64,000 bases of DNA from Planctomycetota bacterium (GTDB lineage: Bacteria; Planctomycetota; Planctomycetia; Pirellulales; Pirellulaceae): the NCBI GenBank assembly GCA_026692865.1, contig JAPLNI010000029.1, positions 62,001-126,000 of the forward strand, given 5' to 3'. The notes under the pieces were generated by a model. It ran no database searches, was not told the origin of the DNA, and saw nothing but the letters and a program-made list of their open reading frames with translations. This document shows positions 11,121 to 27,200 of the stretch, in pieces (the first letter of the stretch is position 1; every line of letters starts with the position of its first letter). The position numbers and the translations under genes are program-made.

Positions 11121-11956
11121 GTTAAAAAACTCCCAACAGATTGAGGTTCGAAGTAGGTGCGAAATCAGAGAGAGGTAACTATGGAGCGTTAACTAAATAG
11201 CTCCTATCGCGCATTTGCGAGTTGAAACTATCTCTTTCTGGCCTCGAACATTCGAAGCATTGCACTGTCATCCGATGCAAGGTGAACTGCCTACTCGCAA
11301 TCAACTCTCTTGGAAGGCAATCGCCGACGCAATCGAGTGTTTTCGCTTTGTAGTAAAACTTGTAAGACCAACCGCCACAGCCGGTCACGAGTCCAACGAA
11401 CACCAAAAGTTGATCAGACCCCTGGAATCTTTTTATGGACTGTCAAGCATATCATCGGGAAACTTGTAGCGAGGGCGTAAACAAGATGAATTTCTTGAGG
11501 AAAGTTTCTGCAAGTATAGCTCTACAGGTGTCTTGATGGGCTTAATCGCTGTAACCGGAACTTTTTTGCGAGTCGTCGCAGAGTGACATCGGAAATCAGC
11601 AGATGAATTTGCTAGCGATGCAACGGCGAGTTAATCGCAACCTGCGAAAAGAAAAACGAACATTGCCGCAACGCAATCCGCTTTGGATCTCTAAAACTTA
11701 GATGCTTTAGCGTTTCGGTGACACGAATGAAGCCATAAATTACGAAAGAAATCGTAACTGGAAGGTCAAAAGCACTCCTATGCCCTAACCGATTAGTGTG
11801 TCATTTTTTATGAACCCGTAGGCAGTAGCCTCGGGGCCATCTGGTAAACGGTGATTCAATTAAAATCCGAGACTGACTCAGGCTGGCTCAATTCTGGATC
11901 CCCAGGTTTGGTGGGTCAAGACTAGAATTCAGATTCAAATTTCAATTTGGATGCAT
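11121..11956. other. Long intergenic region upstream of flagellin and downstream of the aminotransferase gene
   Basis: 836 bases without a convincing gene; the small frames on both strands have no family resemblance or ribosome binding site. The left part should hold the flagellin promoter and an approximately 50-100-base leader. At 11816-11835 there is a half-palindrome of the repeat family found complete at 26644-26730. Nothing else could be recognised. Confidence 0.4.
11816..11835 (+). repeat. REP-like palindrome family, half copy
   Basis: The 20-mer ccgtaggcagtagcctcggg matches the left arm of the palindrome at 26644-26730 in 18 of 20 positions. No second arm is nearby, so this is a half or decayed element. 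Confidence 0.6.
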
Positions 11957-13276: not shown

Positions 13277-14626
13277 ATGCGAATTCAAGATGCTTCGGCA
13301 TTTTTTTCAACCGCGCTGGCGTACCTGTCGCTGCTCTGGGGCGTTGCAGCAGGTCCGCAATCTTTTGTAGCCGCACAAGCTCCGGTGGCGATTGTCGAGC
13401 GATTGGATAACGGACTCTCTCAAATCACCTCGCAGCATCTCAAACTGGTGACCGATCTTCCGGTTACCCCCGAGATAACGGACTTGTGCAAAATGTTTGA
13501 TCAAGCCATGGCACAATGGGGCAAGGAATTTCAAGTTCCGCGCAGCCAATGGATCGACGGGCAAGCCACCGCTTGTCTGATCGTCGATCGAAAAAGATTT
13601 ACAGACCTCCAATACATCACACCCGAAGTTCCCACCTTTCGCGAAGGCTATCAACTTCAAGACCGGCTTTTTATGCTCGAGCAACCCTCGGCGTATTATC
13701 GCCGACACCTTCTGCTCCATGAAGGTACGCATTGGTTCCTCTGGCGATTCTTGGGTGGAAATGGTCCGCCATGGTTCAGCGAAGGAATGTGCGAAATGAT
13801 GGCGACTCACCAATGGTCAGAACAAAGCGGCTCGCTGCGTATGAATTGGATTCCGACAGACCGCGAAAGTGCTCCACTGTGGGGAAGATTCAAAATGATT
13901 CGAGATGCAATGGCCTCAGATACCGCTCCCTCGCTGGATCGAATCCTTCAATACAGCGACACAGCGCACCGAACGGACGAACCGTATGCATGGAGCTGGG
14001 CTGCGATGATCTTCTTTTCCAAGAACTCCCGTTACCGAAATGCCTTGTATGAGAATTTTTTACCAAACCTGCGAAGTCATGTCGGATCGGAACACAAGTT
14101 GACTCAGGATTTCAAAGATCGGCTTCAAAAGCAATGGCCAAGTATTCAGGCCGAGTGGACCGCATTCGTCAATGACTTGGACTACGGATTCTCCCCCAAG
14201 CATTCGCTGCCTGAGATTGATCTTAATGTACTAAAGCCGACTTCTATTCCCAATCATGTAACCATTGAATCCGAGCGCGGATGGCAGAGCACTGGGATTC
14301 GGCTCAACCAAGGAGATCGTGTTTCGATCACGGCTAGCGGAAGCGTTGTCATTCGCGAAGCATCACCGAATCCGTGGGAAAGCGAACCTCAAGGAATCTC
14401 GCTTCAGTATCACCAAGGATTCCCGTTAGGAAAGTTGATCGCTATCGTCGTACCAATCGATGCACCAGAAAATGAATCGAGCACAACAGCACGCTTGACT
14501 CCTTTCGCAATCGGAAAAAAGCACGCCTGGACCTCTAATCTATCCGGCGTATTGCTTTTAAAAGTCAACGAACCAAGCGCACAACTATTTGATAACGCAC
14601 AAGCGTTTGAAGTCAATAGCAACTAG
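13277..14626 (+). CDS. Secreted gluzincin-type zinc metallopeptidase-like protein (DUF1570-like)
   Basis: 449 residues, with an N-terminal signal segment (about 10-33). HEGTH at 148-152 is a HExxH zinc motif, and PPWFSEGMCEMMA at 164-176 supplies the downstream Glu expected in gluzincins. The C-terminal part from about 335 (GDRVSITASGSVVIRE...LGKLIAIVV) resembles a galactose-binding or LecA-like beta-sandwich. It is probably a periplasmic or surface peptidase with a substrate- or wall-binding module. The stop codon TAG lies inside the target site of the IS element that follows; the gene is nevertheless complete. Confidence 0.65.
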   Translation: MRIQDASAFFSTALAYLSLLWGVAAGPQSFVAAQAPVAIVERLDNGLSQITSQHLKLVTDLPVTPEITDLCKMFDQAMAQWGKEFQVPRSQWIDGQATACLIVDRKRFTDLQYITPEVPTFREGYQLQDRLFMLEQPSAYYRRHLLLHEGTHWFLWRFLGGNGPPWFSEGMCEMMATHQWSEQSGSLRMNWIPTDRESAPLWGRFKMIRDAMASDTAPSLDRILQYSDTAHRTDEPYAWSWAAMIFFSKNSRYRNALYENFLPNLRSHVGSEHKLTQDFKDRLQKQWPSIQAEWTAFVNDLDYGFSPKHSLPEIDLNVLKPTSIPNHVTIESERGWQSTGIRLNQGDRVSITASGSVVIREASPNPWESEPQGISLQYHQGFPLGKLIAIVVPIDAPENESSTTARLTPFAIGKKHAWTSNLSGVLLLKVNEPSAQLFDNAQAFEVNSN

Positions 14627-15813
14627 TTGAGGGTGTCCGGGAATTCAAAGTGCATCGAGAATCGGTTTGATTTGTCCGCTTGGCTTTTTTTGTTTGCAGT
14701 TCAAGCTAACTAATACTTGGTACGCAAAAATACACGAAAGAACCTGCGTGCGATTGTTTTCAATCCCTCGGTGCCACACTCGTTCGTTCAATTCAAACGC
14801 TGATTTAAACCATTCGTTGAACGGCTCAATGCATTGAGACCTAGGTCGAAAATGCTTTTGCGAGAGTTTGCTTTTGAAGGCCATCCTTCTTTGTGCTCGT
14901 CGCAATCGAGTAGCATATTTGCGTTTTGATTCAAATTCACCTTTGGGAGCAACTAACTTCCCTTTCTGTCCGCGACTATTTTGTGGACAGAGAAACCACT
15001 TTCCGGTTTTCCTTTCACCTTTCAGTTCAATTTGGTCTGCGAATTCGTTGTTGTCATATCCCGCATCTGCCAGTACATAACGCGTGCATTGAGGGATCCT
15101 GCGTATCTTTTGACCAAAGCTGCGGTGTTCGCTCATGCTTGCAACATCGGCTGAAGCCACCAATGGAAAAACAACCCCGTTTTTGCCGCAAGATACGACG
15201 ACCTCAAACGAATAGCCCTGAACCCAACCATGATGGCTACTGAATCCCCATTGGCTGTCTTGATCGACACCCCGCAACTTTTTTGGAATACGGTTCTTCA
15301 ATCGATCACCTTTCCACCATTTCGGTCCCTTCGCAACCATCAGGCTTTTGTCTATTGCAGTGATTGAGGCATCTGCCCATCCGGAATGAACCGCTTTTTG
15401 TCCCATCAAAAGGATTGATTCATCCATTATCGAGTGAGCTTTCTTGAAGCGATCAAAATATGTTGAGCGACTTGGTAAACGATGACCATCTAAATGACGT
15501 TCGAAATGTCTTCTGTTACTGGAAATCCATCGAAACTGCGCACTTTTGGTTTTCTTTTTCTTCAAAGTCGCAGACAGAATCAGCAGTGCGAGTACCCAGT
15601 CTGGAATCTCGGGCTTCCGTCCTGGTCCAACTATTGGATGTTTGCGCTCGGACTTTAATAAAATGGGTTTTGCAATTGCAATCAATCTTTCAAGGCACGC
15701 ACCTTCCGTGGTACAAAACATTTGCAGGTTCTCCTGTAGTGGTGGATCGTGAACAACCCATATCTACGGTTTGGACCTGCTTTTTTTGTATCCCAATTTC
15801 CGGACACCCTCAA
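14627..15813 (-). mobile_element. Complete insertion sequence, IS5-like, 1187 bp
   Basis: The ends are inverted repeats: ttgagggtgtccgg at 14627-14640 and its complement at 15800-15813, extending with one mismatch to about 19 bases. They enclose one transposase gene on the minus strand. The element is flanked by aactagtt on both sides if the terminal tt/aa are shared; read as a target duplication it is CTAG (14623-14626 and 15814-15817), the YTAR-type target known for part of the IS5 family. It looks intact and recent. Because the 8-mer is a palindrome, the exact boundary (4-bp or 8-bp duplication) cannot be fixed from this copy alone. Confidence 0.9.
14645..15721 (-). CDS. DDE transposase of the IS element
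   Basis: 358 residues filling almost the whole element. Features of IS4/IS5-type transposases are visible: an N-terminal helix-rich DNA-binding part, then the first Asp in ITAIDKSLM (about 143), the second Asp in YVLADAGYDNNEF (about 223), and Glu in CIEPFNEWFKSAFEL (about 306). The DAGYD segment is a hallmark of the IS5 group. The frame is uninterrupted, so the protein may be active. The start ATG sits 92 bases inside the right end. Confidence 0.88.
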   Translation of the reverse strand: MFCTTEGACLERLIAIAKPILLKSERKHPIVGPGRKPEIPDWVLALLILSATLKKKKTKSAQFRWISSNRRHFERHLDGHRLPSRSTYFDRFKKAHSIMDESILLMGQKAVHSGWADASITAIDKSLMVAKGPKWWKGDRLKNRIPKKLRGVDQDSQWGFSSHHGWVQGYSFEVVVSCGKNGVVFPLVASADVASMSEHRSFGQKIRRIPQCTRYVLADAGYDNNEFADQIELKGERKTGKWFLCPQNSRGQKGKLVAPKGEFESKRKYATRLRRAQRRMAFKSKLSQKHFRPRSQCIEPFNEWFKSAFELNERVWHRGIENNRTQVLSCIFAYQVLVSLNCKQKKPSGQIKPILDAL

Positions 15814-16893
15814 CTAGTTACGAGCCACTAATTTTAAAGCTGTTATTGGGATGTAGTACTTCAAGTAGCGTTTGTGGTTGCTATACATTTCACCCTGAGG
15901 GGATTCGACCAAGACGGTCGCGCGACGGGTGATGCGATTGACAACACCTTGGACGGGATGTCCTTCGTGCATAAAGTAGACTCGGCTGCCGACACGAATA
16001 TCGAATAGCTTGGCTGCTCGTTCACGTTGCGTTACGAGTTCGTGTCGGTGCTCGGTATGCCCGAAGAGACGATTAGCGATTGCTTGGAAGCGTCCTGCAG
16101 CGCAATCACTATCGATCCAGACCAACATCTCTGCCAAGTGGATTGCTTCGTGTTCAACGATCCGCTGCATGGCTTCCAATCTGTGATGGCAAGGTCTGCC
16201 ACAGACCTTGATCGGACGCGAATCTTCTTGAAAGGTCTGAAACAATAGTGACGAGGAGAGCGTGATCTCGTAGTGAATCTCGGCTGCTCTTCGGATGGTC
16301 GCGCGGCGAACGGTGCGTGTCGTTTTTCCGCCAGCCCGCGTCATCCGACTGCTCCATCGAAACGCCATACCGTAATGCTTGGCCAGAGCGATACAGGAGG
16401 AATCAAAGTAGATCGAATCGTAGAGTTCGGACATCAATCGCAAATCGGCAACGCTGGTCGCAGAAAAATTCTCATCCGCCATGGCTCGCGAATGTTGCAG
16501 CACGGTCGTTTGGATCAGTCGACTGCGAGCACTGTAGACCTCGGGGGCGATTTGCTGATGCCGAAGAATTTCCTCTAGCCGATCCTTCATGATGGCGATG
16601 CTGGGAGCGATCTTTGGCTTGTTCTTCTGCGTGCTTTTCGGAGTGGATTTCTGAGTTGATTTTATAGAAGAGACTCGCGGGTTCGCTTTGTCAGCGGTAC
16701 CTGTGGTAGCTCGTTTCGATGCATCGGCAGATGTTCGTGATGTGGTGCTGCCCTGCAAGCTTCCAAAAATGCCTGGCAGCCATCCCGATTTGGTTGCCGC
16801 GTTTTGTGTGCTTTCTTTTGTGTTTTTTGCATTGCTTTTTGCATTGCTTTTTTTGGGGGCCATGCCGTGCAACCTTAGGAATCTATCTTCCAT
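15814..16893 (-). CDS. SprT-like zinc metalloprotein with Lys/Ser-rich N-terminus
   Basis: 359 residues. Residues 11-97 are a low-complexity Lys/Ser/Thr/Asn-rich tail with repeated KSNAK and KSTQK units, probably disordered. Residues about 100-290 hold a SprT-like domain with HEAIH at 248-252 and a third zinc ligand candidate His279 in FGHTEH. The last 60 residues (VGSRVYFMHEGHPVQGVVNRI) look like a small KOW/SH3-type barrel. A second possible start, MAPKK, is at residue 11. SprT-domain proteins elsewhere handle DNA-protein crosslinks, but many bacterial members are uncharacterised, so the role is open. Its TAG stop lies in the CTAG duplicated by the IS element. Confidence 0.65.
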   Translation of the reverse strand: MEDRFLRLHGMAPKKSNAKSNAKNTKESTQNAATKSGWLPGIFGSLQGSTTSRTSADASKRATTGTADKANPRVSSIKSTQKSTPKSTQKNKPKIAPSIAIMKDRLEEILRHQQIAPEVYSARSRLIQTTVLQHSRAMADENFSATSVADLRLMSELYDSIYFDSSCIALAKHYGMAFRWSSRMTRAGGKTTRTVRRATIRRAAEIHYEITLSSSLLFQTFQEDSRPIKVCGRPCHHRLEAMQRIVEHEAIHLAEMLVWIDSDCAAGRFQAIANRLFGHTEHRHELVTQRERAAKLFDIRVGSRVYFMHEGHPVQGVVNRITRRATVLVESPQGEMYSNHKRYLKYYIPITALKLVARN

Positions 16894-22581: not shown

Positions 22582-22600
22582 CCTAAGCCGTAGGCATTAG
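22582..22600 (+). repeat. REP-like palindrome family, half copy
   Basis: cctaagccgtaggcattag matches the left arm of the palindrome at 26644-26730 in 16 of 19 positions when aligned from the base before that arm. No second arm is nearby. Confidence 0.5.
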
Positions 22601-24298: not shown

Positions 24299-27200
24299 CT
24301 ATCGCTTGGTAATGGTTTCGTCGAAAGAAATGATCGCTTCTACAACGACACTGGTTGCGGCTAGATCCTGCAAATCGATCGATTCGGGGACTGGTTTCTC
24401 GCCAACTTCGACGAATGACTTTGCGGCATCCGAGTTTGCTGCAAAGTAAACAAGTTGTTCATCATACAGTTTGCGAAGAACTTCTAACTCTTGATCGCTT
24501 GGGAGTCGACTTGTGAGTCTTCGGAACGACTCGCGCCATCGCTGATCACGATCTGCTGGATGGCTTGCGATAAGGTTTTGAGCAAGGAATCTTGCTGCTT
24601 CGATATACTGGGGATCATTTAAAAGGATGAGCGCTTGCAGGGGCGTAGAGGTAAGCTCGCGTTTAGCTGTACAAGTTTCGCGGCTAGTTGCATCGAAGGT
24701 TAGCATGCTCGGAGGAGGAGCTGTTCTACGCCAAAACGTGTAGAGGCTTCGTCGATAGAGTCCGTCACCTTTGGCTTGATTGTACTTTTTATTCGTCCCA
24801 GCTTCTTCCCATAATCCAGCAGGTTGATACGGCATGACACTTGGTCCACCAATCGTGCGAACCAACAAATTGCTCGCAAGTAAAACGCTATCGCGAACTT
24901 GCTCAGCCGATAAGCGATGGCGTGGACCGCGGGCAAGTTGTTTATTGTCTGGGTCGCTTTCGAGAAGACTCAAATCGCGTGGGACTGACGACTGTCGATA
25001 GACCGACGAGAGGACAATTTCGCGACAAAGTTGCTTCGTATCCCATTCTTGATCCATAAACCGCCGCGCGAGCCAATCAAGCAATTCCGGATGTGTTGGC
25101 GGTTGACCTTGGTTACCGAAATCATCCAGGCTTGCCACAAGTCCACGACCGAAGAAGAGGTGCCAAAATCGATTGACCGTTACCCTGCTTACTAATGGAT
25201 TTTGATCGTCGATCATCCACCTTGCCAGATCGAGTCTGTCTTGTGCGGCATCAGGATTCTGGTCGGGCGTGTGCTTGAGCTTGGGAAGAAACGAAGGGGT
25301 ATCTGCTTGGACCAAATCGCCAGGCGATTCATACGCTCCTCGCAAAAGCAAATGCGTCGAACGAGGAACGATTGCATTCTTCATCGTCATAATTTGACGA
25401 ACTTTGGATGCGATTTCGTTTTCTTGTTGATAGGCTTCAAGGAGAGCTTTGCTTGCAGCGACCGTTTCGGGATTCACGTTTGTGATGAAGTGATCTAGTT
25501 TCATCTCGTCAGTCACATTGAACTCGGAGTTATTACTGGCGACTAGTGCGGCTTCCCATGACGATAGCCTTCGATGAAATACTTGTAGTTGATCTAGGCA
25601 ACCATTGCGAAAGCCAACATCGCGAAAACGAGCTCCTAGAGCCAGCGGTGCAGCGTTCGGACTGGAGTCATGCCAATCAGAGCGATGAAGAATATCGCGA
25701 GTCAGTTGATCACGAGCCACATCAAGATTGACGGCAGAACCATTGACGTACATCGTTACACCCGATGCCAAACTACTTCCATCGTAAGCGATTGTCAGAT
25801 GAGTCCACGAGTCCGGTGCGAGTGCCTCCGAGGCCATGACACGGATTGCGTTTCCTGGCCAAAAATGAATCAGCGAGAACTCGGGGCGTCCATTTCGCAA
25901 AACCAATTGTAGACCACGAAAAGCCGAGTCTTCCGCGGCCACTGACTGATGCAATACAGTTTGATACGGTGCGACCGTTCCGCCCGCTTCAATCGGTCCT
26001 GGCTTGATCCACAGTGAAAACGATACCGGGGAGTTACGACCGTACTGAAGGGCTTTCTCGCACACAAAAGCATCGTCACCGTTGAATTGCATGGCCTTCC
26101 CAACGACTCCTTCGATATCCCCATCCAGTGGAAAATCTAAATCAGCGACCGGTGTTGACGGTGGAGTGATTGCGTTTGAAGCTAAGTCTGAAGTTGACGC
26201 TACGAATCGACTGCGTGCTGCATCGGTTGCCTGCTGCAGATCGCTTCGTAATTTCTTGATATTCGACAAGCTATCCTGATGCTGTTGTTTTTGATCACCG
26301 TCATAAAGCAAAAGGGTTGGTGTGGGTGATGTCTTGGTGAAGTGAGAGTAGAGCCCGTGCTCGTCGATATTCGCAAAGTAAGCGGCAAGCTGATAAAAGT
26401 CCTTTTGCAGAATCGGATCATATTTATGATCGTGACATCGAGCACATTCAAAAGTCATCCCCAGGAAAGCGGTCGCGTTGGTCGCGGTTCGATCGGCGAT
26501 GTAGACTTGGCGGAACTCTTCTTCGATACTACCACCTTCGTTGGTTTGACGATGTAACCGATTAAAGGTAGTCGCCAGTTGTTGATCCAACGCGGTTTGG
26601 TCTGAGGAAGACTCGGAAAGGGCCGATGAACTTGAGGTTGTTCCTGAGCCGTAGGCGCTAGCCTCGGGTTTCGTTCTATCTGATGGGGAGTCGCTTGGTG
26701 CGTCACCCGTGGCTAGCGCCATCGGCTCAGTGTTGATTTGGCTAGAGCTGGGGAGCAGATCACCGGCGGTTTGCCAAAGAATAAACTTATCGTAAGGGAG
26801 ATTTTGATTGAACGCGCGAATCACCCAATCACGCCATGGCCAAACGTCCATATCAACGTCCGATTGGTAACCGAACGTATCAGCGTATCTTGCAACGTCC
26901 AGCCACATGTTCGCCATGCGTTCACCGTATGCGTCACTGCCGAGCAGACGATCTACGACACGCTCATAAGCATCCGACGAAGTATCGCTCAGAAATTGAT
27001 CCAACTCCGTTAGCGTCGGCGGTAATCCAGTAAGGTCAAGGCTTACTCGTCGAAGCCAACGTTCACGAGACGCTTCGACTGCGGGCTCGATGCGAAGGCT
27101 TTTCAATTGCTGATAGACAAATCGATCTATGTCAGAGCGTATCCAATGCGAGTAGCTTTCGCTGTCGCTTTTGATCTCCATCTTAATTTTTGAATCAGGA

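Follow-up and report, generated by a model that had tools for sequence, protein, structure and literature searches.

An in-frame REPIN-like palindrome in a planctomycete DUF1549/DUF1553 gene and the repeat family to which it belongs

The segment that lengthens a DUF1549/DUF1553 protein in the window analyzed here (a 64,000-nucleotide stretch of a Pirellulaceae genome) is very probably a copy of a mobile palindrome present many times in the genome. This REPIN-like pair, best preserved as a 120-126 bp MITE, would have transposed into the gene after the split from a sister species, survived there by virtue of its open frame and been translated as unused residues. According to the mechanism proposed, the palindrome would transpose to many places in the genome, presumably by means of a DDE-type transposase acting in trans. 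Within genes, a copy would survive only in the single stop-free strand and frame of the six, and only where the added nucleotides sum to whole codons. Translation would then extend a tolerant linker by some 40 residues, whose sequence the cell would leave unused. The window copy, a member of subfamily B, would have come by the same route as subfamily A, and its residues would be expected in the mature protein. Protein-coding palindromes have long been regarded as a peculiarity of Rickettsia, and are known mainly from there. In this planctomycete genus they occur at scale, with empty, shared and sister-specific sites, and the open- and closed-frame subfamilies of one genome provide natural controls. 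Two long-standing questions thus become testable, namely how selfish DNA lives in genes and whether the extra peptides ever serve a purpose.

The window copy and the empty sites

The palindrome reported by the initial annotation was recovered in full, with two arms of 26 nt which pair in 23 of 26 positions (88%) around a loop of 35 nt, both translated in frame (Table 1). It lies in the DUF1549 linker of the host protein, between AGDLLP and LATTFNR. The annotation's statement that this linker is normally short was accurate, as 7-8 residues separate AGDLLP from the A-T-F motif in some 20 homologues of the DUF1549 segment, drawn from Planctomycetota, Acidobacteria, Bacteroidetes and other phyla. 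These homologues lack the segment altogether, and none was seen to share it without the palindrome. The linker comprises about 57 residues in the window protein versus about 12 in the ortholog from the same-genus genome G001 (contig JAIYDQ010000422.1, "Planctomycetaceae bacterium isolate H1_MAG_00040"). This ortholog, the one close ortholog compared, is 88-91% identical to the host protein and lacks the palindrome in its entirety. The window insert amounts to a net 135 nt, i.e., 45 codons, or 126 + 9. The window protein itself belongs to a large paralogous family, with 134 matching segments in the whole genome. An AlphaFold2 model of the DUF1549 domain, based on 9 sequences, was too poor to use (mean pLDDT 48); at this low confidence the insert exhibits one short helix at its edge and otherwise no secondary structure.

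Table 1. Features of the window that bear on the palindrome (positions of the whole stretch; arms and outer repeats named in gene orientation)
Feature	Position	Strand	Evidence or remark
Host gene, PSCyt1-DUF1549-LamG-DUF1553, 1108 aa	24299..27625	-	ORF and domain matches
Stretch absent from the G001 ortholog	26615..26750	-	136 nt here versus 1 nt there
Palindrome, a REPIN-like unit of subfamily B (89 bp)	26643..26731	-	nhmmer 78.9 bits, E 6e-22
Sequence of the element on the gene strand, CTGAGCCGATGGCGCTAGCCACGGGT ... ACCCGAGGCTAGCGCCTACGGCTCAGG	26643..26731	-	
Left arm, encoding TEPMALATG	26705..26730	-	Arm pairing and in-frame translation
Right arm, encoding KPEASAYGSG	26644..26669	-	Arm pairing and in-frame translation
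Probable remnant of the left outer inverted repeat, TAGCCAAATCAAC (consensus TGGGCTGATGAAA)	26732..26744	-	7/13 to consensus
Probable remnant of the right outer inverted repeat, AACAACCTCAAGTTCATCGGCCCT (consensus AAAAATGCCCTTTTCATCAGCCCA)	26619..26642	-	15/24 to consensus
Decayed subfamily A copy, intergenic	11815..11877	-	nhmmer E 9e-6

Two further empty sites were found against G001, namely an insert of 129 nt (120 + 9) at C23:68798 and one of 90 nt at C26:46213, whose loop is C-like and which lacks outer repeats. All three lengths (135, 129 and 90 nt) are multiples of three. Some palindrome insertions occur in G001 only, and eight or more are common to both species; activity thus continued after the species split. 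As the initial annotation had proposed, a mobile palindrome appears to have entered this protein-coding gene. The entry very probably postdates the split of the lineage from its sister species, and the window copy indicates that subfamily B has moved since then.

Repeat family, open frame and residence in genes

The core GGCTAGCGCCNNCGGCTC has 442 matches with up to two mismatches in the 5.55-Mb genome, versus 15 for a reversed control, and its exact form has 113 matches versus 0 in the 2.38 Mb (43% of the genome) covered by the detailed census. This copy number rules out a chance palindrome in a low-complexity linker. The arms are therefore far from unique. The "REP-like" palindrome of the initial annotation is, more precisely, a full inverted pair, and not a single REP. 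Simple inverted pairs account for 60 of the 136 core clusters in the census, in which an in-house hexamer-scored ORF finder called 1753 genes (86.5% coding). Profile searches in the same 43% of the genome resolved four subfamilies: A (72 copies, core unit 83 bp), B (20 copies, 89-92 bp, the window copy included), C (30 copies, ~102 bp) and D (38 copies, ~90 bp). The half copies noted earlier in non-coding DNA fared differently. The one at 11816 is the decayed subfamily A copy of Table 1, while at 22582-22600, directly downstream of a DUF1501 gene, only a single decayed arm (CCTAAGCCGTAGGCATTAG) was recognized by eye, unmatched by every subfamily profile. A doubled left arm in frame (EPMALATGxxxEPMALATG) is present in the genic copies C29:143234, C19:40133, C28:98985 and C26:54216.

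The subfamilies differ in their coding potential. The full 120-bp consensus of subfamily A is open in one of six frames (GLMKPEPMALATG...PEASAYGSGKTPFSSA), the open-frame peptide of A and B being EPMALATG...PEASAYGSG, and the consensus sequences of C and D are open in none. Residence in genes, within the 43% of the genome surveyed, was found for 22 of 72 copies of A, 18 of 20 of B, 2 of 30 of C and none of 38 of D, i.e., 40/92 for A and B together and 2/68 for C and D. The genic A and B copies lie on the open-frame strand in 38 of 40 cases (A 22/22, B 16/18), and all 24 genic directional pairs share one open frame, compared to 13 of 27 pairs elsewhere (P 2e-5). Genic core lengths (77, 80, 83, 86 and 92) are nearly all 2 mod 3, the exception being a single pair of 97 bp, for which the ORF (57 aa) is doubtful, whereas intergenic lengths include 84, 94-96, 98, 103 and 113. 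This sorting by frame, strand and length indicates that the fixed frame is a survival filter and not a targeting rule. The many further in-frame cases which the census brought to light are in unrelated hosts, among them an HrpB helicase, a UvrD/PD-(D/E)XK (AddAB-like) nuclease-helicase, an inositol monophosphatase, an AcrB-family RND pump, an FGAR-AT (PurL-like) protein, a carboxyltransferase-domain protein, and DUF1587-1595 and Wzy-ligase proteins.

The genic share of subfamily A (31%) is lower than the 52% expected if all open-frame landings survived, so that some in-frame landings must also have been purged. The share of subfamily B, whose profile, built from seven genic copies, then picked up 13 more, only two of them outside genes, exceeds the ~52% predicted by a random-insertion filter. 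Either B spreads by preference among genes, or its intergenic copies decay past detection. It is conceivable, albeit rather unlikely, that B represents a palindrome lineage resident in coding sequence, which copies itself from gene to gene, holds its loop lengths (35, 38 nt) mostly to increments of three, is nearly absent from intergenic DNA and spreads as an in-frame peptide module, not as non-coding DNA.

The codon positions of the inserted sequence were compared in the four gene-resident copies common to both species. Substitutions at positions 1, 2 and 3 number 22/21/22 within the elements versus 47/46/169 in the flanking codons (P 4e-5). The ORF predicted around one of these copies, C28:209107, is only 56 aa long and a doubtful gene; the pattern is the same in the other three. 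The even distribution together with the open frame implies that the insert is kept open and that its amino-acid sequence is unconstrained. These data support the view of the insert as a predicted translated passenger of ~40 extra residues, tolerated without function, in keeping with the tolerance suggested in the initial annotation. At shared sites the arms have diverged by 10.8% and the loops by 25.6%, a difference inflated by ascertainment, as the copies were located through their arms. Copies located by their outer ends include some with decayed arms. Special retention of the arms by selection was dropped on these two grounds.

Other accounts of the segment have to be weighed against a tolerated insertion. 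A peptide recruited as a tag, linker or binding loop, and kept in genes for that function, would fit the near confinement of subfamily B to genes and the lower divergence of the arms. It is nonetheless quite improbable, because the shared in-gene copies are free of codon-position bias, the arm conservation is inflated, has no third-position preference and extends to copies outside genes, and the host proteins have no common function. A segment ancestral in the gene, which the sister species lost by deletion, is a reading that benefits from the comparison with one close ortholog and from the decayed state of the window copy's target duplication and outer arms, and it is very improbable all the same. 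The linker is short in homologues across phyla, the length difference is exactly the element + 9, and the arms match the repeat consensus, from which it follows that the window sequence derives from the repeat family. The location inside a conserved domain might also recall an intron or intein removed from the product. Yet 126-135 nt is too short for a group I or II intron or an intein, the insert has no stop codons, a spliced intron would not need its reading frame preserved, and Rfam gave no match across the window element (its sole sub-threshold match falls outside the element), which together make such removal extremely improbable.

Outer repeats, target duplication and candidate transposases

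About half of the subfamily A copies are bounded by the outer inverted repeats TGGGCTGATGAAA and TTTTCATCAGSCCA, which are weak in B, C and D. In A, each of the 12 best among 340 boundary-offset combinations gives direct repeats with a spacing of exactly 129 bp (120 + 9), with 128 matches versus 90.5±8.0 when the flanks were swapped (0/20000). The excess holds over 66 A copies (3.50 versus 2.37 of 9; P<2e-4), and clean 9-bp duplications are exemplified by GTCCGAGTC, CCCTGTGTC and CAGGCGGAC. The same comparison detected no target duplication in B, C or D as groups. An A element of 120 bp together with its 9-bp duplication adds 129 nt, hence always whole codons, and the duplication thereby supplies a mechanism of in-frame spread. 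Subfamily A thus combines terminal inverted repeats at fixed boundaries with a duplication of constant length, as in a MITE, and departs from the insertion without target duplication that would be expected of REPIN/RAYT transfer. No target duplication is known from RAYT/IS200-type enzymes. From these sequence features we infer that A is a MITE moved by a DDE-type transposase, and not by RAYT/REPIN transfer only.

At the window site, the probable outer repeats match the consensus to a degree near the subfamily A mean, and the left one is nearest to that of the copy at C26:35528, which has a perfect 9-bp duplication. The duplication of the window copy has decayed (4/9), and its transposition route is consequently deduced from length and flanks. 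An autonomous parent would have TGGGCTGATGAAA...TTTTCATCAGCCCA ends. No parent IS with matching ends was found in the 43% of the genome read, and the whole-genome list of outer ends contains no convincing IS-sized pair, only a loose one (C41:12266-15278) which no DDE_Tnp_1 gene overlaps. The window also harbors an IS-like unit (14626-15822) with inverted ends GAGGGTGTCCGG...CCGGACACCCTC, located between two AACTAGTT copies and enclosing a DDE_Tnp_1 ORF (14645-15427, minus strand); neither end of the unit is related to the palindrome. In G066, a genome from another genus of the family, the same core (77 bp) occurs inside different outer inverted repeats, TAGGCTCTGTCAGAAAA...TTTTCTGACAGAGCCTA (loci L187, L194, L203, L211 and others). 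It is as if the palindromic core rode on different transposases across genera. The peptide-frame ORFs of G066 are mostly only ~35-120 aa long, and its outer repeats, on inspection, interrupt that frame with stops.

The search for RAYT-type transposases, which the initial annotation had recommended, yielded a Y1_Tnp gene (161-170 aa, C24:48051-48533, within locus L033, C24:46707-49964) with subfamily C REPs directly on both sides. A Y1 (HUH) transposase could in principle account for all mobility if it moved the two inverted REPs together in single-stranded form; the outer repeats would then be incidental or a preferred target. The textbook REPIN layout of the core, the flanked Y1_Tnp gene and the 90-nt insertion at C26:46213, with its C-like loop and lack of outer arms, all speak for such a route. 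Set against them are the 9-bp duplication at a fixed distance in A, which is unexpected for IS200-type enzymes, the assignment of the REPs at the RAYT gene to subfamily C and not to A or B, and the failure of RAYT presence to follow core copy number. G066 has 651 core matches and no RAYT among the matches listed, and G001 has 134 core matches and only a 39% RAYT paralogue among those listed. Pure RAYT/REPIN mobility is therefore a possibility of some weight, although not the likely one, and RAYT as the sole mover was rejected on the grounds of copy number and the A target duplication. Since the C26:46213 insert has a C-like loop without outer repeats, a second route, possibly RAYT, may coexist with the DDE-type mobilization proposed for A.

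Relation to known palindromic elements

By its behavior the element is an RPE-like protein-coding palindrome which overlaps with the intragenic GTAG REPs, a class already known, and the planctomycete family looks new, set apart from both by their descriptions. According to a review (PMC10969869), the RPEs of Rickettsia are 100-150 bp palindromes that occupy many unrelated genes in frame, with one preferred frame, and add ~30-50 residues. The likeness to them drawn in the initial annotation was upheld, as the A and B palindromes are also in frame in many unrelated genes, with one preferred frame (38 copies on the same strand and 2 on the opposite one), and as three palindrome sites are empty in the orthologues of G001. 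The planctomycete palindromes differ from RPEs, compared by description, in phylum and in sequence, in a sorting of subfamilies into genic and intergenic by open frame, and probably in the outer inverted repeats and 9-bp duplication of subfamily A. The survey by Di Nocera et al. (2013, PMC3733652) classes RPE-4/-6 as intragenic REPs, reports GTAG REPs in the PVC superphylum, including Planctomycetes, and describes intragenic GTAG REPs, such as those of the verrucomicrobium Opitutus terrae, as REP dimers inside ORFs which encode 20-30 residues. The planctomycete REP pairs resemble the latter in lying inside ORFs and encoding extra residues, and differ by description in that no outer terminal repeats or 9-bp duplication are mentioned for GTAG REPs in the portions of the survey consulted.

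The planctomycete family shares with REPIN/RAYT systems its inverted REPs around a loop of variable length, a copy number in the hundreds and, for subfamily C, a REP-flanked Y1 transposase gene; it differs from them in the target duplication of A and in a copy number that fails to track RAYT presence across the family. The resemblance of A to prokaryotic DDE-mobilized MITEs lies in its short, non-autonomous form, its terminal inverted repeats and its 9-bp duplication. Unlike those MITEs, it has no same-end parent IS among the sequences searched, and a REPIN-like palindrome forms its interior, bounded in another genus by other outer repeats.
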